In this document: positions 7,422-41,573 of the stretch, in pieces
Position numbering within the stretch: the stretch's first letter is position 1
How the letters are laid out: the number at the start of each line of letters is the position of its first letter
Assembly: GCA_032139905.1 (NCBI GenBank)
Contig: JAQJDB010000006.1
Location: 744,001 to 808,000 of the forward strand
Origin: Nitrospira sp. MA-1
Lineage (GTDB): Bacteria > Nitrospirota > Nitrospiria > Nitrospirales > UBA8639
Reading direction: 5' to 3'
Length of the DNA: 64,000 nucleotides
Program-made: the position numbers and the translations under genes
Notes under the pieces: generated by a model
The model's input: the letters and a program-made list of their open reading frames with translations, nothing else
The model's database searches: none
What the model was told of the DNA's origin: nothing

Positions 7422-8409
7422 AGGCATTTTTCTAATCGCAACACTAATTGCACTTATTGTTGCAAACCACCTTTATTTTAAATTAGCCCTTCATGCAGGA
7501 ATTGTTGATGTACCAAATCAACGCAGTTCACACCTTTTGCCAACCATACGGGGCGGGGGAGTTGTTTTTGTCGTAGCTCTCCTGTTTTGGTTTTCTCTTA
7601 ATGCCAAGCTCTATCCATGGTTTATTGCTGCAGTGTTGCTAATTGCTATCGTTAGTTTTGCTGATGATGTTCGGAGCTTGTCTGCATCCGTCCGTTTTTT
7701 TGTGCACCTGATCAGCATTATTTTGCTTGGAATTCAGGTTGAGCTGTTTGCCCAGCCGCTATGGATTTTTTTTCCGGTTATTATCGTTGGTATTGGAGCC
7801 ATAAATTCCTTTAATTTTATGGACGGCATCAATGGTATTACGGGAATATATGGTCTGGTTAACCTCTTGACCTTTTTCTATATTAATCAAGAAATTATTC
7901 ATTTCATAGATGACAGTCTTCCACTGTATATCTTGATGAGTATTTTGGTATTTCTTTTTTATAATTTCCGAAGACGTGCTGTGTGCTTTGCCGGTGATGT
8001 TGGAAGTATAACCCTGGCATTCATTCAGGTTTTTTTGTTAGTGAAGTTGATCATTGAAACGCAACAATTCTCTTGGATTTTTTTGTTTTTGGTGTTTGGT
8101 GTTGACTCGGTAGTGACTATTTTGTATCGGTTGAGAAAGGGTGAAAATATATTTAAACCACACCGGTCACATTTATACCAATATCTTTCGAATGAAATGG
8201 GGAAATCACACCTGATTATTTCCAGTGTTTATGGACTATTGCAGTTGGTAGTTAATGCTATATTAATCCTTTTTCTTCCTTATAGTTCCGTTGGGCTAGT
8301 AGTATTATTTGCCACAATTTTTGTGGTTTTGTATGTTGTAGTTCGTGAACAGGTTTTATCTAGATTGGGTATAAAAGGGTTTGTGGGAGATTCCAAGTTG
8401 TTTGTGTAA
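7402..8409 (+). CDS. polyprenyl-phosphate N-acetylhexosamine-1-phosphate transferase (WecA/WbpL/MraY family)
   Basis: This polytopic enzyme of 335 residues loads the first sugar-phosphate onto undecaprenyl phosphate at the cytoplasmic membrane. Family motifs are all present: DVPNQRSSH and RGGG (36-53), the Asp pair in SFADD (85-89), NFMDGINGITG (138-148), FAGDVGS and PHRSHLYQ. Around nine or ten hydrophobic helices surround them. The start is the ATG at 7402; the TTG at 7399 is less likely. It overlaps the SDR gene by 20 bases, indicating translational coupling. A second initiating phosphosugar transferase of a different fold occurs at 10103, so the region may build two glycans. Confidence 0.9.
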   Translation: MLLEYPKGIFLIATLIALIVANHLYFKLALHAGIVDVPNQRSSHLLPTIRGGGVVFVVALLFWFSLNAKLYPWFIAAVLLIAIVSFADDVRSLSASVRFFVHLISIILLGIQVELFAQPLWIFFPVIIVGIGAINSFNFMDGINGITGIYGLVNLLTFFYINQEIIHFIDDSLPLYILMSILVFLFYNFRRRAVCFAGDVGSITLAFIQVFLLVKLIIETQQFSWIFLFLVFGVDSVVTILYRLRKGENIFKPHRSHLYQYLSNEMGKSHLIISSVYGLLQLVVNAILILFLPYSSVGLVVLFATIFVVLYVVVREQVLSRLGIKGFVGDSKLFV

Positions 8410-8766
8410 GCGGCGGTGAGCTGTCACCGTTCTTGGGTTATTTTCCATATATAGGTCCTTCGAGTGTTGGTAGCTCCTCTCTTTTTAACCCAGTTGAAGA
8501 GAGGAGAGAGCGGATTTTCTGACTGGTGACCGACCCCGGTAATACAGGCCGCTGGGCAGTTGAGAATTTTGCCTTCGACATGTTCGATTAAGGATGATCA
8601 TGCTGGGGTCTCAAACTGACATAAGGGCACCTCAAAAAATCTGAAGGTCGCCTTATTTGTCATTGGGTAAGCGAACCCATTATGGAAACGGTCCTACGGG
8701 GGGAAAGGATGCGAGCGGTCTCCTGACATCTGGGTTCCGGCCCATGGTTCCCCCTTGGCTCATTGA
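8410..8766. other. intergenic region with a short inverted repeat
   Basis: No gene is supported here. The stretch includes a perfect 8-bp inverted repeat (CTCCTCTC at 8474-8481 and GAGAGGAG at 8499-8506) without a following T-run. The rest has no clear coding frame and merges into IS5 debris. Confidence 0.45.
8474..8506. repeat. 8-bp inverted repeat
   Basis: CTCCTCTC (8474-8481) pairs perfectly with GAGAGGAG (8499-8506) across a 17-base loop, about 65 bases after the transferase stop codon. There is no T-run, so an intrinsic terminator is doubtful. Confidence 0.35.
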
Positions 8767-9933: not shown

Positions 9934-10102
9934 GTAATCGAGGCATTGAGACTCAGATTCTTGAAGCTTTCTAGTGGATACATGGTCTGTTCCCCCCCTC
10001 CTTGTGGTGGTAGCTCTCCTTTTCTATCTAATTGGAAAATGATAGAGATCAAAATTTACATTCCATTCAAGTGGGTTCAATGTTCATTCAGGAGTACCGG
10101 TG

Positions 10103-12643
10103 ATGACTAAGCGTGTTGTTGACACTCTTGGTGCGTTTTTTGGCTTAGTGGTGTGTATGCCCCTCTTTGTCCTGCTCGCCTTCCTTATTAAAGTGAACTC
10201 TCGCGGGCCTGTGTTGTCCTGTCAGGAGCGCGTGGGACGAGGGTTTCGGCCATTTTGTCTGTATAAATTTCGCACGATTGAGCAGGACGTCTCTGCAAAG
10301 GGAGGGGAGCTGACCATTGGCGAAGATCCTCGTGTGACCAGCATAGGAAAGTATTTGCGCCAGTTGAAGCTTGACGAGCTTCCGCAGCTGTTCAATGTTT
10401 TGATAGGGGATATGAGTCTGGTAGGCCCACGTCCGGAGGTGGCCTATTATGTTGAAAAGTTTAAAGAGGACTATCACGATGTTTTGACGGTCCGGCCTGG
10501 TTTAACGGACCTGGCTTCTCTGAAATACATCGATGAAAAGAGCGTGCTCGGAAAAGTCGAGAAACCCGAAGACGAGTATACGAATAGGATCCTGCCGGAA
10601 AAAATCCGCTTAGCAAAGCTATATATTGAACATGCTTCTTTTGCTTTTGACCTTGCCGTCATTGCCCAGACGCTATTGCAACTTCTGGGTTTACGGAGTG
10701 TAATTTTAAAGGTTACCGATCGTGACAATCATGATGAAGTGGCTTTTCTTGAGGGGTCGGTGGTTTTCCAGCTTATTACCAAATACCGGCGTCCCATTAT
10801 CATAACGCTGGATCTGGGCCTGATTGTGTTGGCCAATTATCTGGCGTTCTGGTTGAGATTTGACGGCCATCTTCCCCAAGACGCCACGCAACTTTTGCTC
10901 AAGACTTTGCCAGGTCTGCTTGTAATTCGTGGGATTGCCTTTGGGGTTTTTCGCCTGAATGAAGGGCTGTGGCGGTATATTAGTATCTGGGATTTAAAAA
11001 AAATTACGGGTGGGGTATTGGCTGGGACCGTGGTGTTCTATGGCTTCGTCAATTGGGGGCTTGGTATTCCCGGCTATCCCCGGTCCATTTTTATCATTGA
11101 TAGTATCCTTTTAGTCGGATTTCTTTGTGGGATCCGGCTTGCTGTCCGAATCTTTCGGGAGCGAAAGGTTTTGAGAAAAACGAAACGTGTTCTCATTATT
11201 GGGGCTGGTGATGCCGGTGAAAACATCGTTCGGGAGATGCAATCACATTCCACCTCATCCTATACGCCCATTGGATTTGTGGACGATGATGTCTCCAAAT
11301 TGAGCAAGCGCATCCATGGAGTAAAAGTTCTGGGAACACGCCAGGATCTATCACGCATTCTTCACACGCACTTACCGGAGGAAGTCTTAGTGGCCTTGCC
11401 TGGGACGAATTCAGCCGTTCTTCGCGACATAACGGCACTTTTGGCGCCATTTAACGTGCGTATCAAGACCCTCCCGAACTTGGGTGATATCCTGGAAGGC
11501 AAAGTCACGATCAATCAGATACGGGATCTCGCGATTGAGGATCTGCTTCAGCGTCCCCCTGTGGGGTTGGACCCCCAGCCCGTTCGCAATTTAATTGATG
11601 GGAAGCGAGTATTGGTGACTGGGGCGGGCGGGTCTATTGGTTCTGAGCTCTGCCGCCAAATTATCGCGCTAGGGCCTAAGACCCTCATCCTATATGAACG
11701 ACACGAGAACAGTTTATACGCGATTGCGGGGGAGCTGACGGATCAAGGCCATGCCGGTGTGATTCATGAAGTGCTGGGAGATATCACGGATGTTCCACGT
11801 CTCCACGAGACATTCAAGACGTACCGTCCCGAGATCATATTCCATGCGGCGGCCCACAAGCATGTGCCGTTAATGGAAGCGAATCCCGGAGAAGCTTTTA
11901 AGAATAATGTCTTGGGCACACGTTTAGTGGCCGAAGCGGCCGCACACTTTGGTGTCGAGCATTTTGTCTTGATTTCAACAGATAAGGCTGTCAATCCATC
12001 CAGTGTCATGGGGGCGACCAAACGGGTGGCGGAATTGGTTGTCCAGGCCATGGCGAGTCAGAATCAGAGTCAAACGCGATTCCTGACCGTTCGCTTTGGT
12101 AATGTTTTGGGCAGTAATGGAAGTGTCGTGCCGCGCTTCCAAAAACAGATAAAGGCTGGGGGACCAGTCACGGTCACACATCCTGAGGTTCGGCGCTATT
12201 TCATGCTGATTCCTGAAGCGGTGATCTTAGTATTGCAGGCTGCTGCCCTTGGGGAGCAAGGCGCTATTTATGTCCTCGAGATGGGCGGACAAATCAAACT
12301 TGTGGATCTCGCGCGTAACCTCATTCGACTCTCTGGCCATGTGCCTGAAAAAAATATTCCCATCCAGTTTATCGGTCTTCGACCTGGAGAAAAGCTCGAA
12401 GAAGAATTGGTCGGGGAATGTGAGCGAGCTGTGCCTTCATCAATTGATAAGATCCTCAGGATTCAATCAATCCAGTCCCTTGATCAGGCATTCCTGACAA
12501 ATATTCTGAGCAAGTTGGAGGATGTACAGATATTGGGCCATTCTCCCTCGGTGATTGAGCTCCTTCAGCAGTTGGTCCCGACTTTTCATCGTCCTGAAAT
12601 TTTGGAACTGGCAGCAATGAGTGAGGAATATCAAATTCACTGA
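10103..12643 (+). CDS. fused polyprenyl-phosphate sugar-1-phosphate transferase and UDP-sugar 4,6-dehydratase
   Basis: One 846-residue frame joins two enzymes. Residues 1-203 form a PglC/WcaJ-type monotopic transferase: N-terminal membrane hairpin, KFRT (55-58), the Asp-Glu dyad D91-E92 in LDELPQLFNVL, and VGPRPE. After a linker, residues 230-350 hold about four membrane helices, 360-470 a CoA-binding-like Rossmann domain (IIGAGDAGE), and 500-780 the catalytic dehydratase with GAGGSIG (507-513), STDK (625-628) and MGATK (636-640), where Met replaces the SDR Tyr as in WbpM/PglF. It would make a 4-keto-6-deoxy sugar nucleotide and also initiate glycan assembly. Start ATG 10103 follows AGGAG at 10090-10094; a GTG at 10100 is also possible. 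Confidence 0.9.
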   Translation: MTKRVVDTLGAFFGLVVCMPLFVLLAFLIKVNSRGPVLSCQERVGRGFRPFCLYKFRTIEQDVSAKGGELTIGEDPRVTSIGKYLRQLKLDELPQLFNVLIGDMSLVGPRPEVAYYVEKFKEDYHDVLTVRPGLTDLASLKYIDEKSVLGKVEKPEDEYTNRILPEKIRLAKLYIEHASFAFDLAVIAQTLLQLLGLRSVILKVTDRDNHDEVAFLEGSVVFQLITKYRRPIIITLDLGLIVLANYLAFWLRFDGHLPQDATQLLLKTLPGLLVIRGIAFGVFRLNEGLWRYISIWDLKKITGGVLAGTVVFYGFVNWGLGIPGYPRSIFIIDSILLVGFLCGIRLAVRIFRERKVLRKTKRVLIIGAGDAGENIVREMQSHSTSSYTPIGFVDDDVSKLSKRIHGVKVLGTRQDLSRILHTHLPEEVLVALPGTNSAVLRDITALLAPFNVRIKTLPNLGDILEGKVTINQIRDLAIEDLLQRPPVGLDPQPVRNLIDGKRVLVTGAGGSIGSELCRQIIALGPKTLILYERHENSLYAIAGELTDQGHAGVIHEVLGDITDVPRLHETFKTYRPEIIFHAAAHKHVPLMEANPGEAFKNNVLGTRLVAEAAAHFGVEHFVLISTDKAVNPSSVMGATKRVAELVVQAMASQNQSQTRFLTVRFGNVLGSNGSVVPRFQKQIKAGGPVTVTHPEVRRYFMLIPEAVILVLQAAALGEQGAIYVLEMGGQIKLVDLARNLIRLSGHVPEKNIPIQFIGLRPGEKLEEELVGECERAVPSSIDKILRIQSIQSLDQAFLTNILSKLEDVQILGHSPSVIELLQQLVPTFHRPEILELAAMSEEYQIH

Positions 12644-20014: not shown

Positions 20015-20689
20015 TTAGGAAGATCGTAGAGTGTTTTCTATATCGTCCACAATCTGTGGAGACAGGGGCTTCTGTTTAGGATCATACCGAGCAATGACCG
20101 CTCCGTTCCGGTTAATAAGAAATTTTTGGAAATTCCAGGTAATCTCCCCCTTAAAGCTGGTGTCTTCGGTGAGATAGCGATAGAGGGGGTGCTTCTGTTC
20201 ACCAATCACCGTGATTTTACTAAACAACGGGAATTCCAAGGAATACTTTGTATAGCAAAATTCCGCGATTTCCTTGTTGTCTCCAGGTTCCTGTTTGCCA
20301 AAGTCATTCGCCGGAAAGGCCAAAATCGTAAATCCTTGATCGCGGTATCGTTCATATAAGGTTTGGAGTCCGGCATACTGCGGCGTATTTCCACAAAAGC
20401 TTGCCGTATTCACGATCATCATGACCTGTCCTTTGAACTCGTTGAGGGAGCGTGGTTTATTATCAATATCTTCCATGGTGAAGTTGTAAATTTGTGAAGC
20501 CGGTTTATCCTTTGTGAAATCAAATTTTGAAGCTTGTTGATCTGAAGGGAGTAGTTGGGGCTGGGGTTCATTGGCCACTGCTTCTCCTATAGATGTTGAA
20601 TACTCCTGACTACATCCGCTAAAGATTACTAGCGCACACAGTGTGGCTATTGAGGCATAACGAGGAATGAATAGATTTGTGCCTGCCAT
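20015..20689 (-). CDS. glutathione peroxidase-family lipoprotein (Cys type)
   Basis: The protein of 224 residues reduces peroxides with thiol donors, often thioredoxin in bacteria. It begins with a lipoprotein signal (lipobox Cys26, FSGC) and so acts on the periplasmic side. The peroxidatic Cys99 is in VNTASFCGNT, Gln133 in FPANDFGKQEPG and Trp185 in TWNFQKFL; Cys145 may be the resolving Cys. The ATG at 20689 follows AGGAGG by seven bases, which decides against the upstream start at 20716. It is a stress gene at the edge of the redox/light island, with a thioredoxin encoded 0.8 kb upstream. Confidence 0.92.
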   Translation of the reverse strand: MAGTNLFIPRYASIATLCALVIFSGCSQEYSTSIGEAVANEPQPQLLPSDQQASKFDFTKDKPASQIYNFTMEDIDNKPRSLNEFKGQVMMIVNTASFCGNTPQYAGLQTLYERYRDQGFTILAFPANDFGKQEPGDNKEIAEFCYTKYSLEFPLFSKITVIGEQKHPLYRYLTEDTSFKGEITWNFQKFLINRNGAVIARYDPKQKPLSPQIVDDIENTLRSS

Positions 20690-20889
20690 GATGAATCCTC
20701 CTGAGATAATGGACAACCAGTCATTCGTTTACTCCAGTGTAATTCTGAACCTCCGGTCAGGGCAATTGGCCCAGATAGAAATATCAACTGGACTATTAGG
20801 TGTTTGAACTTTTTCCTAATAAACCCATACTGGGTTCTAGAAAAATAGCCAAAGGCATTTGTGCTTGAGAATATGATCGGAAATGGGAT

Positions 20890-22695: not shown

Positions 22696-24126
22696 TTAGG
22701 TCAATCCCGAAAATGCCTCCAGCGCTCGCTCACGGGAATCGCTGAGTTTGACGATCGGCAGGGGATAATTCTCTCCGAGTAGCACCCCCGCTTCTGCCAA
22801 CACTTTTTCGGGTGCTTCCCAAGGATTATGCAGGTATTTCATCGGCATCTTTTTTAACTCGGGGATGAACCGTCGAACATACTCGCCATCTTCATCGAAC
22901 TTTTTTCCCTGCGTGACGGGGTTGAAAATTCTAAAATAGGGTGCCGCATCGGCCCCACAGCCTGCAATCCATTGCCAGCTGGCACTGTTGTTGGCAAGAT
23001 CGGCATCGACCAATGTATCCCAAAACCAGTCTTCCCCAAGGTGCCAGTGCAACATGAGGTTTTTAACCAGAAAGGATCCGACAATCATGCGAATGCGGTT
23101 ATGCATGTAACCGGTTCCCCACAGTTCACGCATGCCGGCATCCACGATGGGGTAGCCGGTTTGACCTTGTTGCCATCTTTTCAGGGCTTTTAGATCTTTA
23201 CGCCAGGGAAAGGTATTAAATTTCTTTTGCAGATTTTTTCGGGGGAGCTCCGGGAAGTGAAAGAGCAGACTGTGAGAAAATTCCCGCCAGCCCAGTTCAC
23301 TTAAAAACGTCTCCCCCTCCTTCCGCCATCCTTCAGCGCCCATGTGTTGTTTGGCGGCATGCCACACCGCATTCGGTGAGATTTCTCCGAAATGCAGATG
23401 CGGCGATAACCGCGAGACATTGTTTCTGGAGGGATAGTTTCGGCCTTCTTTGTAGTGTTTGAGGCCGCTTTTGAGAAACGCTTTCAGTCGAGCCTGTGCC
23501 CCGGCTTCTCCGGGCTCCCAATGTTTGGCAAGTTTTTTGTGCCAGGGAATATTTGGCAGCAGGTCCAGATCTTTCAGTGCCACACCTTTGTATGTGGAAA
23601 GCCTTAAATTTTTTGGGTCTTTTAGGGGTTGTCGGGGTTCATTGCCATTTCTGAGACATCCATTTTGATAAAAGGGAGTGAACACCTTATACGGAGTGCC
23701 GTCGCTTTTGAGCGCTGTCTGGGGTTCAAAAAGCAGGGAGCCGTTACAGGTGTGAACCTCGATTCCTTCGGTCTGCAATGTTTCTTGTATGTGTGCATCC
23801 CTGGGGATTCGCCAGGGTTCGTAACATCGGTTCCAATAAATTGCCGCTGCTCCTGCCTCTTTGATGACGTCCATCAGGACCTTTTGAGCCGGTCCTTTCT
23901 TGAAGCACAGATTGCCCTCGAATGTTACGTTCAGCACCTTGAGACTTTCATGCAGCCACCAGCGGCTGGCAGCGCCTAACTTCCATTCTCCGCTATTTTC
24001 CTCATCAAGAATAAATAGTAGGAGGATAGGGTGCCCTGTTTTATGGGCCGCCAACAATGCCGGGTTGTCCTTGATGCGTAAATCCTGGCGAAACCAGACC
24101 ACGACTGGGGAGTTGTTTGTTGTCAT
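22696..24126 (-). CDS. phrB: deoxyribodipyrimidine photolyase (class I CPD type)
   Basis: The 476-residue flavoprotein repairs UV-induced pyrimidine dimers using blue light. The N-terminal antenna domain starts VVVWFRQDLRIKDNPAL (8-24). The C-terminal FAD domain shows SPHLHFGEIS, the SELGWREF helix, FPWRKD, GYPIVDAGMRELW, GYMHNRIRM, the DWFWDTLVDADLANN flavin loop (with the N5-facing Asn) and the ASWQW and RIFNP segments. ATG 24126 follows AAAGG; the start at 24144 lacks one. It lies between the DCC remnant and the BLUF-PsiE gene on one strand, supporting a light-response cluster. A cryptochrome-like role cannot be excluded but the repair residues look complete. Confidence 0.93.
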   Translation of the reverse strand: MTTNNSPVVVWFRQDLRIKDNPALLAAHKTGHPILLLFILDEENSGEWKLGAASRWWLHESLKVLNVTFEGNLCFKKGPAQKVLMDVIKEAGAAAIYWNRCYEPWRIPRDAHIQETLQTEGIEVHTCNGSLLFEPQTALKSDGTPYKVFTPFYQNGCLRNGNEPRQPLKDPKNLRLSTYKGVALKDLDLLPNIPWHKKLAKHWEPGEAGAQARLKAFLKSGLKHYKEGRNYPSRNNVSRLSPHLHFGEISPNAVWHAAKQHMGAEGWRKEGETFLSELGWREFSHSLLFHFPELPRKNLQKKFNTFPWRKDLKALKRWQQGQTGYPIVDAGMRELWGTGYMHNRIRMIVGSFLVKNLMLHWHLGEDWFWDTLVDADLANNSASWQWIAGCGADAAPYFRIFNPVTQGKKFDEDGEYVRRFIPELKKMPMKYLHNPWEAPEKVLAEAGVLLGENYPLPIVKLSDSRERALEAFSGLT

Positions 24127-24281: not shown

Positions 24282-25166
24282 TTACAGATTATCTGGTTCT
24301 CCCCAGGTAAACCGTCTTTCAATGAGCCAGTAGGTAATGCCTAGCGCCAGCACCACCGCAGCAGTTGCAAAAATATAGGGAGGTGTGATTTCTTTGAAAT
24401 CGAAAATGATCACCTTTCGGGCTATGGCCATTAAAGCTGTAGCTATGACCATTTTAATGTGAATGACGTCTTTGCGTATATACAGCGTAATGTTAATGAA
24501 AATTTCTATGGCAATGAGAACGGCTAGAAATGCTCCAAATGTGGTGACGATATCCCTAATGGTAAATGTCGTGAAACTCGGCAATATGAGTTTTTGATAA
24601 ATGAGGTACACCACATCAACGACTCCCCACAAAATGGTAAACACCATCAAGACTGCCAGGACTTTTACGGCTGCCCGTATGGTCTGGTGGAGAACTTGTA
24701 TGAGACGATCTTCTTGATCGAGGGATAATTCTTCCTGCCCGATTTTTTTGAGCCGGTCTTTGCGGAAATGCTCCATCAGGGAATCCACAATACTCTCGTG
24801 GCTTCCCAAAAAAGTCGTATTGAAATCCTTCTCAACGAGGTTTTCGAGGCCTTTCACGGCCTGAAATTCTTCTCCGGATACCCTTTTAAATCCCATGCTC
24901 CAGTCGGCATACTCGCGACGATCCACGGTTTTTTTCTTCAGCACTTGAAAGTCGGTGTGGCGAGGATCTTTTTTGATTCTCGCAATCAATTCATGTACAG
25001 CCTGCTCTTCCCCTTCCAGTATTTGGATGAAGGTATTGTTTCCATACAGCAACATTCCGGTTATGCCTAATCGTGCATTGTTTTCACGGCTGCTCCTTAG
25101 AATCTGTTCCAAATCCTCTTGTGACATCGGTTTCGTGGCGGTACTGATGTACGAAATTTGGATCAT
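24282..25166 (-). CDS. BLUF blue-light sensor fused to PsiE-like membrane domain
   Basis: Residues 1-95 are a BLUF domain binding FAD. The photocycle residues align without gaps to AppA: Tyr6 (Y21), Asn30 (N45), Gln48 (Q63), Trp89 (W104) and Met91 (M106), in ISYIS, GITGMLLYGN, FIQILEG and DWSMGF. After a linker helix (about 110-150), residues about 160-290 form four membrane helices resembling the phosphate-starvation-inducible PsiE family (TFGAFLAVLIAIEIF, LYIRKDVIHIKMVIATALMAIARK, ending YWLIERR). BLUF outputs known to me are EAL, cyclase or short helical domains, so a membrane PsiE output is unusual. ATG 25166 follows GGGGGA. Function of PsiE is unknown; a light-gated membrane protein is inferred. 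Confidence 0.85.
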   Translation of the reverse strand: MIQISYISTATKPMSQEDLEQILRSSRENNARLGITGMLLYGNNTFIQILEGEEQAVHELIARIKKDPRHTDFQVLKKKTVDRREYADWSMGFKRVSGEEFQAVKGLENLVEKDFNTTFLGSHESIVDSLMEHFRKDRLKKIGQEELSLDQEDRLIQVLHQTIRAAVKVLAVLMVFTILWGVVDVVYLIYQKLILPSFTTFTIRDIVTTFGAFLAVLIAIEIFINITLYIRKDVIHIKMVIATALMAIARKVIIFDFKEITPPYIFATAAVVLALGITYWLIERRFTWGEPDNL

Positions 25167-25610
25167 TAATTTAATCCCCCTTCACATGAGCGAATGGTCT
25201 ATGATGTTGTTTTTTAATTGTAACCATAGGGGAATGAGTCCGATAGGTCATATGGCACAGAAGGGGGATAGGAATGAGAACAGTTTCCATCTCAAGCCCT
25301 AAAAAAGGTACCCAGGCAAAGGTACCCAGGCTTTAGCGGAAGGAATTATTCCTCGTGGCGTGGAGTAATTTATACTGAATTGAGGGAGAGCTCCACACTT
25401 GAAATGCTGAGGTTGAAAGCAAGGTCCATTTCCGCGGTCTCATGGGCACCTGATAGGCGCAGTTTGTATTCTCAAATTTTCATGCCCCGAATGGCGTGGA
25501 AACACAAAGTTCTTCAGATGCCTATCCGCTAAACCCTCACAATACTTTCCCTTGGACTCTAGGGCCTTGGTGAGATTTGGCACTCCTGAAGAGTTTATTG
25601 CAATATTCCG
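25167..25610. other. intergenic region with short tandem repeat
   Basis: No gene is supported. Two perfect tandem copies of a 14-base unit (AAAGGTACCCAGGC) occupy 25304-25331. The region should contain the promoter of the minus-strand BLUF-PsiE gene, but I see no clear consensus. Confidence 0.5.
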
Positions 25611-26657: not shown

Positions 26658-27296
26658 TCAGCACCAAACTTTTTTTAGCCCTGGCTTCTTTGACAGCTTT
26701 ACTTCTGCGAGGCGATAACGACTCCACAGGCCGATAGAGGCGATGCTCCCCGCCAAAATTATGAAGGCTCCCCAAAAAAGTGCAAATGGTTGGCTCATAC
26801 GATTATTTCTCCTGTTGATGAATGGAAAGGCCGATGAAAGTGCTAAAGAGGAAAGGGATTCAGGTTGGTGCCCCCACAAACTGATGCTCACCTGGTGAAT
26901 GATTTTTCTCCAGGCAGATTCCATGGCAGGGCTCCAGGCATCTTCTGCCAATTCAGAAAAAATGTCTAAATAGGTCTCCGCCATCCTGAGCAGGTGATGA
27001 GGTTGCAGGTGGCTTACCGTTGTGGGTGCCAGATCTGCCCATTGTTCTCTGATGGGTGACCGAATTTTTCCGCTTAAGCGGATTTCCTTGATGATCGTAT
27101 CGAGGATCTGGACGATGCGCCTGCTGAATGGTTGTAGCCCCATTGTTTGGAGAGAAGTGGCGATCTCAGGATGCTCTCGCAACAAGCGATGGAACAGCTT
27201 GTCGGCAAATGCATCTTCACTTTCCTTGATCCATCCTAGGCCGCATTCAAGTATATGAATCTCCGAATCTGAAAAATTGGGGGTAATTTGTTCCAT
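26658..27296 (-). CDS. globin-like protein with C-terminal membrane anchor
   Basis: Residues 1-140 resemble a single-domain bacterial globin: an A-B helix segment (ESEDAFADKLFHRLLREHPEI), an E-F region around residues 55-75, QPHHLLRMAETYL (98-110) for the G helix and SPAMESAWRKIIHQVS (122-137) for the H helix. A membrane helix at about 171-191 (FALFWGAFIILAGS) anchors the C-terminus. By eye the proximal F8 His position falls on Thr92, with His96 as a possible substitute, so heme binding is uncertain. ATG 27296 is the first Met before the domain; a TTG at 27344 is possible. It precedes the NxrC-like gene by 90 bases, suggesting joint expression and oxygen or NO sensing at the membrane. Confidence 0.65.
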   Translation of the reverse strand: MEQITPNFSDSEIHILECGLGWIKESEDAFADKLFHRLLREHPEIATSLQTMGLQPFSRRIVQILDTIIKEIRLSGKIRSPIREQWADLAPTTVSHLQPHHLLRMAETYLDIFSELAEDAWSPAMESAWRKIIHQVSISLWGHQPESLSSLALSSAFPFINRRNNRMSQPFALFWGAFIILAGSIASIGLWSRYRLAEVKLSKKPGLKKVWC

Positions 27297-27524
27297 GGGA
27301 GAAGTGCCCTTCCTATGGTTCTCTAAATATAGCTTCTTTTTCAATGTACACCCTGGGGTCTAGGGGAGGTCAAAGAAAAATGAAAAACCTTCGACAACGA
27401 AAGGCCGCTCAAGACTTGCGTGCGCATGTCGGAAGGTAGACCGTCTCAATGACGACTATGGAGATTGAAGTGTTGTTGGGTCGGGGAATTCTAGAAAACG
27501 GGGAGGATGCCGGATATCAGGTCT

Positions 27525-28763
27525 CTAGCCATTTTCGAATCTTTTCTGCCGCACGACGACTGGAAAAAGGGCTCCATCCATAGTCCCGGTGGCAGAAAAA
27601 TCCCCACAAACAACGACTCCATCCTGAATATGTGTCTGACGAGAGAACGGGTTAGGAAATGGTGGAACCTGGGCAGGTTGGGCGGCGGTGATGGAATAGG
27701 CTCGAATTGGTTGCCAGCCTTCGACTTGTGAGCCAAACCATTCACGCAATTGTTGGCGAACCCGGGTGGCAAGGTCTCCTATGGAAGGATCAGCATGGTT
27801 TAACACTGAAACGGAGATCAATTGTTTGTTGGACGTGGAATAGGTCGGGGCGATTTGAGTGAGGACACAAAGATTGTTAATTGGACCGACTCCCTCTCCG
27901 TTCAATAACAGAAACGGCCCTGAAAAAGGCGGCTCAGAGGTAGCATAGTAGAGACATGTTACATGGCGATAGGGAGCTGGATTGAGTCCGGGAACAAGCC
28001 TGGTTGCGGCTGGTCCGTCGGTGGCCACGACAATGGCGCGAGCGGATAGAGGCTCCCCTGATTCCAAGGTTACCGAAGTCTTTTGCATGAATGTGACCCT
28101 GGCTTGAGTGCGAATTCGCCCTGCCGGAAGACGGGATACCAATTGTCGGGGAATGGCTCCCATCCCTCCGGCGGGAAGTGAAATGTCTCCAGACGCAAAT
28201 ATCCGAAAAGCAAATTCCGCCATACGACTGGAAGTCTGTAAATCCGAATCCAAAAATACGCCACCAAGGAATGGTCGAAAAAATCGTTCGATTATGGAGT
28301 AAGAAAATCCGAAATTTTTAAGGTGTTGGAGTGTTGAGGTTTCGGGCCTTTGAAATAAATCGTTCAAGCTTCCTGTATTTGCCCGATGGCGAAATGTTGT
28401 TACCCGGATTTTGTCTGAAAGGGTGCCGATAGGAGTGAAGAGCGCTTGAATTCCCTGAAAAGGATGTCAGAAGGGATCCGGCATCCGATGCCATTTACCA
28501 AGACACCGAATCACTGCACCTGGGAAAAATTGATGGAGCTCGAGGGCAGGGTAATTCAATATGCGTTTGGCCTCAGGATACGCAGTGGAAAAGACCTGGA
28601 AACCCCGGTCTAGAAGGAAACCATCAACGTGATCTGTGCGAATCCTCCCCCCCTACGTCTTCTGATGCTTCAAGCAGTAAAAAGTTTATCCCATAATCCG
28701 CTAATGTTTTCGCGCAGGAAAGTCCGGCAAGACCTGCTCCGAAAAGGGCACATCAGCATTCAT
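27525..28763 (-). pseudogene. FAD-dependent oxidoreductase (phytoene desaturase/amine oxidase fold), broken
   Basis: Minus-strand reading gives a near-complete flavoprotein: GAGLAGLSCA (FAD dinucleotide loop), LLLEASEDVGGRIRTD, then DRGFQVFSTAYPEAKR, a TGA at 28467-28469, and in the same frame HPFQGIQALFTPIGTLSDK and the rest to VVVCGDFSATGTMDGA, the C-terminal FAD motif. A one-base shift near 28750 also separates the ATG at 28763 from the FAD loop. With these two lesions the gene is probably inactive; the 280-codon open piece is only its C-terminal two thirds. Related proteins act in carotenoid or porphyrin chemistry, which would suit a light-responsive cluster. Confidence 0.8.
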
Positions 28764-28833
28764 GGGAGAAATATGTTGGTTGAGGCCGAGAAAGGAAAAA
28801 GGTATATGCCTGATGTTCGGAAAGTCGTGCAAA

Positions 28834-29778: not shown

Positions 29779-30738
29779 CTAGGTGGTGAATGAGGACGAG
29801 CTTATGTTCTTTGCCATGTGAGGAAGGTGAGTTCGGGGTTGAACCGTTTTGACTTCTTGAATCTGACCAAAATAGGAAATATTGTGGGTGCTGAGTAGTT
29901 GGGCAAAGGGTGTGAACCCGGGTCCGCCCACCACCACCTCACACAATGGCTGCAGATGTTGAGTAATATCACGAATCCAGGTTTGTAGTGTGCCTGTACC
30001 CGGTTCAATAATGCAGGAAAGAATAATAAGCTGTGCGTGTTTTCGGCGCAAGGCCATTTCCAACATCTCAAATGAGACATTGGGCCCGAGATAGATACTA
30101 TGCCATCCAATGCTTCGTAAGAGCACCGAAGCTGAGAGCGGACCGATTTCATGAAAGTCTCCAGGCACGCAGGCAATCAAGGCGTGCGGTCTTCCAAGAG
30201 GAGATTCTTCCCTGATGATGTTGATGAGGTGTTGGCGCACCAAACGGCTCACGCTTTGTTCTCCCCTCAAACTGATTCCTCCCTGATGCCATAGCTCACC
30301 AATCAGTCGCAAGAAAGGAAAGATAATGATAGTCAAAGCCCGTTCGAGCCCCAGACCATCAATCCAGTTTTCAAGCATGGTGGTGATTCCCTGCACATCC
30401 TGCCGCCGCGCGGATCGAATCATTTCCTGTGCGTCATTCCAATATGTGGAGGGTATCCCTGAGAGATCAAGGGGGACATGCTGCATCAACTGTCGGAGTT
30501 CGTGCTCACCGGCCTGGGCTAATTGACCAATGGACTCACCATGATCCACCTGTGATTTCAGGTACAGGAGAAATTGAATATCGTCTTCAGTAAAAAGTCG
30601 ATAGCCGTTAGAAGCTCGCTGAGGATGGACCAATTGGTAGCGTTCTTCCCATTTCCGAATCACGTGGGCGCTGAGTCCTGTCGTACTGGCCACAGATTTA
30701 ATGCGAAATTTCTGGGAATCGTTTGCAATGTTAGACAT
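29779..30738 (-). CDS. MerR-type regulator with cobalamin-binding domain, CarH/LitR-like
   Basis: The protein has 319 residues: an N-terminal MerR helix-turn-helix (about 10-80: TTGLSAHVIRKWEERY, GYRLFTEDDI), a four-helix domain (about 95-180) and a B12-binding Rossmann domain (185-310). The axial-ligand motif D194-x-H196-x2-G199 is intact. The photoreceptor signature W-x9-E-H appears as W150...E160-Q161, so the final His is Gln; H151 next to Trp, which CarH uses after photolysis, is present. CarH repressors release DNA when light breaks adenosylcobalamin. The start overlaps the upstream DUF523 gene by eight bases, so it is translationally coupled. A B12-sensing but less light-active role is possible. 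Confidence 0.87.
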   Translation of the reverse strand: MSNIANDSQKFRIKSVASTTGLSAHVIRKWEERYQLVHPQRASNGYRLFTEDDIQFLLYLKSQVDHGESIGQLAQAGEHELRQLMQHVPLDLSGIPSTYWNDAQEMIRSARRQDVQGITTMLENWIDGLGLERALTIIIFPFLRLIGELWHQGGISLRGEQSVSRLVRQHLINIIREESPLGRPHALIACVPGDFHEIGPLSASVLLRSIGWHSIYLGPNVSFEMLEMALRRKHAQLIILSCIIEPGTGTLQTWIRDITQHLQPLCEVVVGGPGFTPFAQLLSTHNISYFGQIQEVKTVQPRTHLPHMAKNISSSSFTT

Positions 30739-31765
30739 GATTGCGCAACATCAGCTCTTTCGGATGTGGATTGAGATAAACCTGATCCATTAAATAGGGA
30801 ACAGCCAGGATGCGCACATAATGTTTAATGAGCGTCAGAGGAACAGCCAGGGGTGTGAGATGCCGGTGGTAATCCTGAATGGTTTCCTGCAACTCGGCCC
30901 GTTCAATGGTGCTCAGTTGTTTTTTGAAGTAGCCGGCCAGATGCTGGAGGACATTGACATGCTTTCGCACGGTGGCCTTGATTTTCAGCGCGTCCATAAA
31001 TAGGGGACCATAGCGACTGGCAAGGTCCCCAGGTGTATAATGGCCAGCCTTCGCGATGAGCTGCCCAAGGTCGTGATAATGTGAACGGCTGTGGGTGAGC
31101 AATAAATATTTGTGGCGGGTATGGAATTGCACAATGGCCCCTCGGCTGATTCGATGCTCCTGAAATAAGGTTTTCCACCTTCGATAACAGAAAATGCGCT
31201 CGATAAAGTTTTCCCGAAGGGGGGCATCACTCAAACGACCTTCCTCCTCCACAGGAAGCAGGGGAAATGCGTGTTGGAATGCGGAGGCAAAGATACCCGT
31301 TCCCTGCTTGGAAGGTTGACCTTTATCGGTATAGACCTTGACCCGATACACACCGCAGCTTGGGGAACTTTTTTTAAAAATATACCCATCCAAATCACTT
31401 CCCTGTAACTCCTGAACCCGGCGCTGACTAAAGTCGTGCAGGGTGGCGGTGTGATCAATGTGGGAGCGGATGGTCAGGAGTTGTGGAGCCTCAGGATCGC
31501 CGGCCAAATGCATGGCTTCTCGCGGAGTACTCAGTCCGGCTTCCACTTCCGGGCAGACGGGAAGCCATTCGACGAACGGGGCTAGGACATCTGTGAGAAA
31601 GGCATCACGTTTGTGCCCACCATCGTATCGAACGGTATCACCGAGGAGGCATTGGCTGATCCCAAGTCGCGGCTTATGATCAGAAAGGGGCTCAGCCATA
31701 TTGTTGTCGGGTCGGGTCGTTTTTTTGTGAGGTTTGTGATCGATGTCGATAAGTGGTGTGGTCAT
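30731..31765 (-). CDS. DUF523-DUF1722 protein (YbgA-like)
   Basis: The 344-residue protein contains DUF523 (LGISQCLLGDTVRYDGGH, CPEVEAGLSTPRE, KKSSPSCGVY, with Cys residues that could bind metal) followed by DUF1722 (residues about 195-335, with SRSHYHDLG and YGPLFMDAL). E. coli YbgA contains DUF1722 and is encoded next to phr; fused forms sit in LitR/CarH light regulons of several bacteria. The biochemical function is unknown to me. The ATG at 31765 was chosen over the far upstream 31915 because the extension has no domain. It heads an operon continuing into the CarH-like gene, the chelatase and the VOC protein. Confidence 0.85.
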   Translation of the reverse strand: MTTPLIDIDHKPHKKTTRPDNNMAEPLSDHKPRLGISQCLLGDTVRYDGGHKRDAFLTDVLAPFVEWLPVCPEVEAGLSTPREAMHLAGDPEAPQLLTIRSHIDHTATLHDFSQRRVQELQGSDLDGYIFKKSSPSCGVYRVKVYTDKGQPSKQGTGIFASAFQHAFPLLPVEEEGRLSDAPLRENFIERIFCYRRWKTLFQEHRISRGAIVQFHTRHKYLLLTHSRSHYHDLGQLIAKAGHYTPGDLASRYGPLFMDALKIKATVRKHVNVLQHLAGYFKKQLSTIERAELQETIQDYHRHLTPLAVPLTLIKHYVRILAVPYLMDQVYLNPHPKELMLRNHV

Positions 31766-31970
31766 AGGGGTGTGTAATCCCTTTCCTGACGGGTGACGGA
31801 TCCGCCATGCCCATGTCGCATGTTTCTCAATCCTTCTCCGGCGTTGAGTGCCTTTTATGCATGACAAGTTTCCCCAAGGGTTTGGCGTTCCTGAATCCTT
31901 CCTAACTTCATTCAACCCCTCGGATTCGGTTTCCCAGGGGAGATGGCCTGCCCTGCAACTTTTACTCCAT

Positions 31971-40023: not shown

Positions 40024-40923
40024 ATGCCAATGTATAGAATTCATCGTTTTTCCAAGCTTACCGGCCTTTCTCCCCACGTCATACGAGCCTGGGAGCGGCG
40101 ATATGGGCTGGTGAACCCTGTTCGAGGCGATAATCGTTATCGCCTGTATACGGATGACGATGTGGTGTTGTTTCGATATCTCAAGTCTCAGATAGACCAG
40201 GGGTTGTCGATTGGGGAATTGTCCGTGCAAGGACGTGAGCATTTACAGGAGCAGGCTCAGCGGGTATTTGTGGAAACCCATCGTGAGCCGCCACCGTCTG
40301 AACGTTTGGTTACCGATTTATCACAGGCGTTAGAGGAGAATGATCGTGTGGGTTTTGAAAGGAAATTGAATGGCGCCTTAGCCGTGATTCCTTTTGAAGA
40401 AGCGTTACATCGTTTTTTACTCCCCTTACAAGAACGGGTTGGACAACTCTGGCATGATGGAAAGCTTGGCGTGGGCCAGGAACATTATGCGTCTAATCAA
40501 GTCAAACAAAAAATTTTTTCGGCCTTGAACCATTTTCAAACCTCAGATGTGGGACCTGTGGTAGTCATTGCCTGTCCTACGAATGAATGGCATGAAGTTG
40601 CGGCAATGACGGCAGCCTATGTCTGCCGGGCACGGGGTTGTCGAGTACATTATTTGGGGGCCAATTTACCGATTCCTGAATTAGCGGCCTATTGTGACCG
40701 GAACCGTCCCACCTGTGTGTTGCTTTCTGTGACAATGATGGAGTCTTCAGAGGAAGCCCTCGCCCTGGCACAAGAAATAGCCGGTACCATTGTCCCGCTT
40801 ACTCCAGTCGGTTTAGGGGGCCAGGCTATCCAAGCTCATGCTGAGGCATTTTTGCAGGAAAATATCATCGTCTTTCAGGACTTGAAGGCTCTTGATCGTT
40901 TTGTGGTTTCTCTCAAGCACTAA
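40024..40923 (+). CDS. CarH/LitR-like adenosylcobalamin-dependent MerR photoreceptor regulator
   Basis: The protein of 299 residues has a MerR helix-turn-helix (RIHRFSKLTGLSPHVIRAWERRY, positions 5-27; the wing RYRLYTDDDV), a four-helix bundle (about 90-170) and a B12-binding domain (178-295). The photoreceptor motif W-x9-E-H is complete: W143, H144, E153, H154. The lower axial ligand is H190 in NEWHEVAA. By analogy to CarH, the dark AdoCbl-bound tetramer represses and light dissociates it. It is divergent from the zinc-ribbon/SUMF1 operon and upstream of a BLUF gene. Start is ATG 40024 or 40030; the promoter position favours a leaderless transcript. Confidence 0.92.
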   Translation: MPMYRIHRFSKLTGLSPHVIRAWERRYGLVNPVRGDNRYRLYTDDDVVLFRYLKSQIDQGLSIGELSVQGREHLQEQAQRVFVETHREPPPSERLVTDLSQALEENDRVGFERKLNGALAVIPFEEALHRFLLPLQERVGQLWHDGKLGVGQEHYASNQVKQKIFSALNHFQTSDVGPVVVIACPTNEWHEVAAMTAAYVCRARGCRVHYLGANLPIPELAAYCDRNRPTCVLLSVTMMESSEEALALAQEIAGTIVPLTPVGLGGQAIQAHAEAFLQENIIVFQDLKALDRFVVSLKH

Positions 40924-41117
40924 GCCTTCCTCCATTTGTTTTAGAGAATTTTTTCCCTTCCGATATTCCCTGTTTCATATTTGAGAAAGCTTTGATATGG
41001 TGCCCTTTTCCGCCATTCAGAGGCGATAGAATTCGAATGGCATGTTCCTGAATCAAGGCATTCAAAATGAGCAGAGCTCATTGCCTGAGACAATGATTTG
41101 AGGGAGGCTGCAGGGTT

Positions 41118-41573
41118 ATGGAAAACGACTTGTATCAAATCATCTATGCCAGTGCAGCAACACGGCGAATTGAAGAAGACGAGCTACTGTCGATGTTGAA
41201 ACACGCACGTAATAAAAACAAGCAACTTGGAATCACGGGTATGTTACTTCATTGTGATGGATCATTTATTCAGGCACTTGAGGGGCCCAAAGACCAGGTG
41301 ATGAATATGCTTGGGGTCATTCGGCAGGATTCTCGCCACAATCGAATTGTGGTGTTATTTCAAGGTCCGATCAAGAACCGGAGTTTTTCCCAATGGTCAA
41401 TGGGGTTCAACAGACCTTCCAAAGAAAAACTGGCAACGAGCGAGGGGTATACCCCCTATCTTGACGTAGGCGATGATTCCCAGGCCATTAACAATTACTC
41501 CAGTGTCGCCCTAAAATTAATTGGCGCGTTTCGTGAACTATCTGATAAACAATCTTCATCCATGGAGGGCTAA
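41118..41573 (+). CDS. short BLUF-domain blue-light sensor
   Basis: The 151-residue protein is essentially one BLUF domain with a C-terminal helical cap. The flavin-site residues align without gaps to AppA: Tyr10, Asn34, Gln52, Trp93, Met95 (IIYASAA, LGITGMLL, FIQALEG, QWSMGF). Short BLUF proteins act through protein-protein contacts, as in PixD or YcgF-like sensors; the partner is not evident. GGGAGG stands 11 bases before the ATG. It is 194 bases downstream of the CarH-like gene on the same strand, so both may be light-controlled. It shares ancestry with the BLUF half of the gene at 24282. Confidence 0.93.
   Translation: MENDLYQIIYASAATRRIEEDELLSMLKHARNKNKQLGITGMLLHCDGSFIQALEGPKDQVMNMLGVIRQDSRHNRIVVLFQGPIKNRSFSQWSMGFNRPSKEKLATSEGYTPYLDVGDDSQAINNYSSVALKLIGAFRELSDKQSSSMEG

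Follow-up and report, generated by a model that had tools for sequence, protein, structure and literature searches.

We found a gene in Nitrospira sp. MA-1 that joins a complete BLUF domain to a PsiE membrane domain within one reading frame. Both domains are known individually; their combination is new to the literature searched and constitutes a multidomain BLUF receptor with an integral-membrane output. The gene lies at 24282..25166 on the minus strand of the window, the whole 64-kb stretch of DNA that was analysed, and encodes 294 amino acids in one open reading frame from the ATG at 25166 to the stop; the plus strand of this interval is broken by many stops. The BLUF domain comprises residues 1-92 (24891..25166, minus strand) and matches Pfam family PF04940 over positions 1-92 of its 92-position profile (117.9 bits, cut-off 25 bits, E 2.2e-34). 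The PsiE domain comprises residues 166-285 (24312..24671, minus strand), matches PF06146 over profile positions 2-120 of 122 (126.1 bits, cut-off 23.9 bits, E 1.1e-36) and contains four hydrophobic segments centred near residues 174, 215, 246 and 273. Between them lies a linker of residues 93-165 (24672..24890, minus strand), whose end (about 141-165) aligns with the tail at the N-terminus of PsiE proteins that stand alone. The original prediction had located the reading frame correctly and left out its strand; its proposal that a single frame runs from BLUF into four PsiE-like membrane helices agrees with the Pfam matches and the hydrophobic segments, as does the expectation of a BLUF match by HMM search, and the range of 155-290 that it gave for PF06146 was right to within about ten residues.

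The sensor half retains the residues of the BLUF photocycle. Y6, N30, Q48, W89 and M91 are invariant in an alignment of 12 non-redundant fusions, and their predicted AppA spacing was verified by phmmer, which aligned residues 2-93 with residues 17-108 of the AppA chain 2iyg at equal lengths and a constant offset of 15. Among proteins of solved structure the closest is PixD Tll0078 (E 4e-21), where the same five residues align. PixD/Tll0078 and AppA-type proteins thus share the whole BLUF domain with the fusion, with Y, N, Q, W and M at identical spacing, but PixD-type proteins finish in short soluble cap helices, whereas the frame of the fusion runs on into a four-helix membrane domain. In an AlphaFold model of poor overall quality, residues 2-80 follow the order E-H-E-E-H-E with pLDDT values of about 70-84, the reference fold being a ferredoxin-like beta-alpha-beta-beta-alpha-beta arrangement. 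The BLUF-EAL receptor BlrP1 and the BLUF-cyclase receptor PAC resemble the fusion in coupling an N-terminal BLUF domain covalently to a C-terminal output; their outputs are soluble enzymes, whereas that of the fusion is an integral membrane domain with no recognised enzyme signature. To our knowledge, and in the papers cited here, BLUF domains act on soluble enzymes, regulators or partner proteins, and our literature search found no paper linking BLUF with PsiE.

A full-length fusion is encoded 17 times in 15 genomes or plasmids. Eight of these are Nitrospirales genomes, including Nitrospira sp. MA-1; two of the eight, each a single contig (G029 and G030), carry two tandem copies apiece. Beyond this order, the fusion occurs on a Candidatus Thiodictyon syntrophicum plasmid (63% identity, with 99% of the length aligned; already in public databases, labelled only 'PsiE family protein'), in one gammaproteobacterium (G961, 50% identity), and in 5 of 78 genomes of a single-order class of Pseudomonadota, to judge by its size and ranks probably the Zetaproteobacteria (41-42% identity). 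An even sample of the phylum Nitrospirota held it only in the nearest relatives. In a 369-genome sample from the class to which G501 belongs, taken by us as Gammaproteobacteria, one genome carries the fusion and 13 carry a PsiE that is of the same subfamily but unfused (52-65% identity), any BLUF being present in 31 genomes of a 203-genome sample of this class; a 298-genome sample of the Sulfurovum phylum contained unfused PsiE or unfused BLUF and no fusion. With so few carriers in these samples, the fusion is rare and patchily distributed. Carriage by phages or mobile elements was considered and rejected: viral contigs held no relatives of the fusion, and a single copy, that of Thiodictyon, is on a plasmid. 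The BLUF, linker and PsiE parts are all under purifying selection, with dN/dS values of 0.04-0.14 in each part alike (compared with loci L006-L009), and the join itself is therefore maintained.

The fusion may have arisen once and then been transferred and lost, or it may have arisen on more than one occasion. A single fusion clade is not rejected in the tree of PsiE domains (AU p 0.12), and the BLUF tree places a BLUF from Acetobacteraceae inside the fusions (AU p 0.036), which fits a loss of PsiE in that lineage as well as separate fusion events. The Acetobacteraceae protein (L012, 6001-6612) consists of BLUF and part of the linker (44% identity over residues 1-163), with no PsiE following. 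In the tandem second copies of G029 and G030 (L050, 10378-11265; L051, about 10100-10986), the second membrane helix is altered and the conserved E221 is lost (IVPIFSSSLAPIIAIAIF), and the C-terminus is of the type found in the window, as if these copies had recombined or were diverging in function.

The genes around the fusion point to light and oxidative stress. The next gene downstream encodes a DNA photolyase (22696..24126, minus strand), the sole FAD_binding_7 match in the genome. No terminator-like site lies between the two genes on the minus strand, and a terminator-like hairpin is present upstream of the fusion (25306..25331, minus strand); sites of this kind are no more numerous in the region than chance would give. 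Further along the minus strand are a glutathione peroxidase (20015..20716), with homologs close to the fusion in other genomes as well, a FAD-dependent amine oxidoreductase (27525..28367), a MerR-B12-binding regulator with LitR/CarH-like domain make-up (29779..30738), and a RudS-type protein combining a 2-thiouracil desulfurase (TudS) domain with DUF1722 (30731..31915; compare PMC11417400). A thioredoxin is also among the genes within about 17 kb. The set of MerR-B12 regulator, photolyase and RudS known from the LitR/CarH light regulon is thus present around the fusion. On the plus strand follow a second MerR-B12-binding regulator (40024..40923) and a solo BLUF protein of 151 amino acids (41118..41573), which is the genome's one BLUF besides the fusion. 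A LitR-type operator (TGTACA-N12-TGTACA) was not found upstream of the fusion, the consensus being that of Pseudomonas and possibly not that of a nitrospiral host. No RNA family reached the gathering threshold in 19000-43000, and promoter-like sites did not exceed the chance number, with zero on the minus strand.

The same setting recurs in other genomes. In Nitrospirales and in the small Pseudomonadota class, the fusion lies within a photo-oxidative-stress island of MerR regulators (B12-type in Nitrospirales), photolyase, glutathione peroxidase, RudS and lipocalin. The tightest case, L047, shares with L049 the gene order glutathione peroxidase, MerR, photolyase, RudS, an unassigned gene, lipocalin, BLUF-PsiE and ferrochelatase; at L045, lipocalin, MerR and glutathione peroxidase accompany the fusion. 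A light-stress marker (MerR, photolyase, RudS or glutathione peroxidase) occurs within about 10 kb at 9 of 13 fusion loci, as opposed to 1 of 20 control loci drawn from genomes with unfused PsiEs (Fisher p 1.6e-4), the fusion loci representing two lineages and not being independent of each other; the Thiodictyon and G961 loci carry no such marker. At two loci, a ThiI-like gene lies directly upstream of BLUF-PsiE (L046, 8103-10221, confirmed by Pfam; L048, 8247-10407, recognised by eye). ThiI belongs to the tRNA 4-thiouridine synthase family, and RudS removes 4-thiouridine. Together with RudS at other loci, the ThiI-like neighbours would indicate a recurring tie of BLUF-PsiE to a near-UV-sensitive tRNA modification. 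The Class II LitR/MerR-B12 light-inducible gene sets share with these islands the MerR regulator, photolyase (PhrB), RudS, FAD oxidoreductase and SDR (PMC9758184, PMC11417400); they differ in that we found no mention of PsiE or BLUF-PsiE in the two papers and in that the Pseudomonas operator is absent upstream of the fusion. The predicted covalent joining of BLUF to a PsiE membrane module stands and is conserved across two phyla; the light-stress island had escaped the original prediction.

We tentatively propose, with a probability of roughly 0.45, that the fusion acts as a blue-light receptor embedded in the membrane and that its PsiE half adjusts the homeostasis of the membrane or of ions as part of a photo-oxidative-stress programme. 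The sensor, its placement in the membrane and the light-stress context are well supported, and the output on membrane or ion homeostasis is what we infer. The BLUF domain would reside in the cytoplasm, with the N-terminus inside, and bind FAD; light would cause the usual rearrangement of hydrogen bonds between Tyr6 and Gln48. The signal of BlrP1 exits through its C-terminal helices (PMC8846402), and in the fusion the change in BLUF might likewise pass through C-terminal cap and linker helices to TM1, the first PsiE membrane helix. This would alter the PsiE four-helix bundle with its conserved buried charges, and PsiE could then influence membrane or ion homeostasis by itself or by way of a partner that transports cations. 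Within such a programme, BLUF-PsiE would provide a fast, post-translational arm, and the surrounding MerR-B12, photolyase, glutathione peroxidase and RudS genes a slow one. A covalent link of BLUF to a polytopic membrane domain in at least three lineages represents a different use of a flavin photoreceptor. Together with its usual setting of light-stress genes, the fusion suggests that some component of the cell membrane is under the direct control of light. In non-phototrophic bacteria, blue light is reported to shift the membrane potential through potassium channels, and a LOV photoreceptor has been implicated in such a shift in Bacillus subtilis (reviewed in PMC12627116). BLUF being light-switchable, the fusion makes PsiE perturbable at will, with the same protein compared in the dark and in the light, and thereby offers a way to learn what PsiE does.

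Unfused counterparts of the two domains strengthen their connection and hint at the kind of output. In G764 (L076), a solo BLUF gene (7531-7944, minus strand) and a solo PsiE gene (8223-8717, plus strand) are divergent and about 280 bp apart, the PsiE being 62% identical to that of the fusion. In G1053 (L080), a solo PsiE lies within an island of SDR, FAD oxidoreductase, DUF1365, Cfa, OYE, lipocalin, photolyase, MerR and RudS genes. BLUF is furthermore over-represented in gammaproteobacterial genomes that carry the same PsiE subfamily (about 6 of 9 against 25 of 194, p 5e-4), a statistic that ignores relatedness and draws on two overlapping samples, the second of which possibly leaves out G842 and G854. 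On gene content and order, this pattern of solo genes is a classic Rosetta-stone sign of a functional link, independent of the fusion. Kef-type antiporters adjoin solo PsiEs of the same subfamily at L074, L075 and L079, cation P-type ATPases adjoin solo PsiEs at L011, L074 and L079, and a MgtC-like protein does so at L011; other close solo PsiEs adjoin PhoD-like or unrelated genes. Cation transporters lie near 4 of 17 solo PsiEs and at 1 of 20 control loci (p=0.16), the four cases being close relatives, and no Kef or cation P-ATPase match is present within about 10 kb of any fusion. With this p value and its absence at the fusion loci, the transporter association is a hint only. PF06146 includes E. 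coli PsiE and orf14 of the tLST island, which share the Pfam domain found in the fusion at 126 bits, and tLST likewise shows an association with stress: KefB and the PsiE-like orf14 belong to a single oxidative-stress module on which chlorine resistance depends (PMC8290217). Canonical members of the family differ from the fusion in being unfused, and the tLST members are only about 31% identical to the PsiE query, 71% of which is aligned. A more direct version of the ionic output appears rather doubtful to us: PsiE would be a pathway for ions or protons, or would switch Kef-type antiporters, and BLUF itself would open, close or retune it. If this version were true, light would shift membrane potential or cytoplasmic pH within seconds, the fusion would be a natural blue-light-gated membrane protein that works without retinal, and the PsiE family would have its first molecular function; any ionic output would make the protein a flavin-based optogenetic membrane tool.

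PsiE could also merely tether BLUF to the membrane, with the signal passing to a separate soluble or membrane partner and the activity of PsiE not being controlled by light. PapB, PixD and other short BLUF proteins work through partner proteins (PMC8846402), the Acetobacteraceae protein lacks PsiE yet retains BLUF and some of the linker, and two further, unfused PsiE genes in the genome of Nitrospira sp. MA-1 imply that PsiE function need not depend on BLUF. What makes such a tether unlikely is the conservation inside the membrane domain: E/D221, N225 and Y229 in the second helix and R250, K251 and D/E256 in and after the third are kept in all 28 of 28 fused and unfused proteins, with Y279 in the fourth helix as a further conserved PsiE residue. 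Charged and polar residues buried in this way exceed the needs of an anchor and argue against such a role, as do the adjoining solo BLUF and solo PsiE genes of G764. PsiE is a widespread family for which we know of no molecular activity, and a search for a solved PsiE structure gave no convincing match (best E 0.77). The two AlphaFold models, built from 5-7 sequences, are of low confidence (pLDDT 54.6 and 58.8); both contain four long helices in the PsiE part. The linker is modelled as helical, with pLDDT below 50 from residue 86 to 156, and a long helix spans residues 149-194, at a confidence that makes it unreliable. E. coli psiE takes its name from its induction by phosphate starvation. In the host, one of the other two PsiE genes (L056, 7987-8538) lies in this classical phosphate context, beside a cluster read by eye as phoU-pstBACS, and this Pho-linked solo gene is encoded elsewhere than the fusion.

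The gene content of the islands is also compatible with a PsiE that, switched by BLUF, protects or repairs membrane lipids under photo-oxidative stress, for example by binding lipids or by organising lipid-modifying enzymes. Related islands hold a cyclopropane-type fatty acid synthase, DUF1365, FAD oxidoreductase, SDR and lipocalin, and comparable light-inducible sets under LitR in Pseudomonas comprise photolyase, SDR, FAD oxidoreductase and the fatty-acid modifying enzyme UfaM (PMC9758184). We regard this role as improbable in view of the lack of an enzyme signature in PsiE and of the ion transporters, PhoD-like and unrelated genes that likewise neighbour close solo PsiEs.

That BLUF senses something other than light, for example temperature or the redox state of its flavin, with light being incidental, is less probable still. 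Some BLUF proteins are reported to respond to temperature, and the host is a non-phototrophic nitrospiral; all photocycle residues are nevertheless kept, and the neighbourhood of photolyase, RudS and MerR-B12 regulators is specifically light-related. An artefact, whether two genes falsely joined in assembly or a frameshift overlooked between them, is excluded by independent assemblies that keep the identical continuous frame (at least 15 genomes or plasmids, some of them single contigs, including G029 and G030) and by the purifying selection across the linker.

Several further genes are of interest in their own right. The FAD oxidoreductase of the window (27525-28770) represents the C-terminal part of a gene of the 415-amino-acid type: it has 280 amino acids here and 415 in a relative, and the missing part can be aligned upstream, in the same frame except for one stretch that lies in a different one, which suggests a stop or compensating frameshifts. 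The gene at 26658-27344 encodes a protein of 228 amino acids with no Pfam or NCBIfam match, in which a globin-like N-terminal region and a C-terminal membrane helix can be recognised by eye; it is retained beside the island in relatives (L050, L051). The second MerR-B12 regulator is followed by the solo BLUF protein (40024-41573), and the two could form a second light-sensing pair in the window. In G912 (L104, from 1495), a BLUF domain is followed by what appears, by eye, to be a response-regulator receiver domain.
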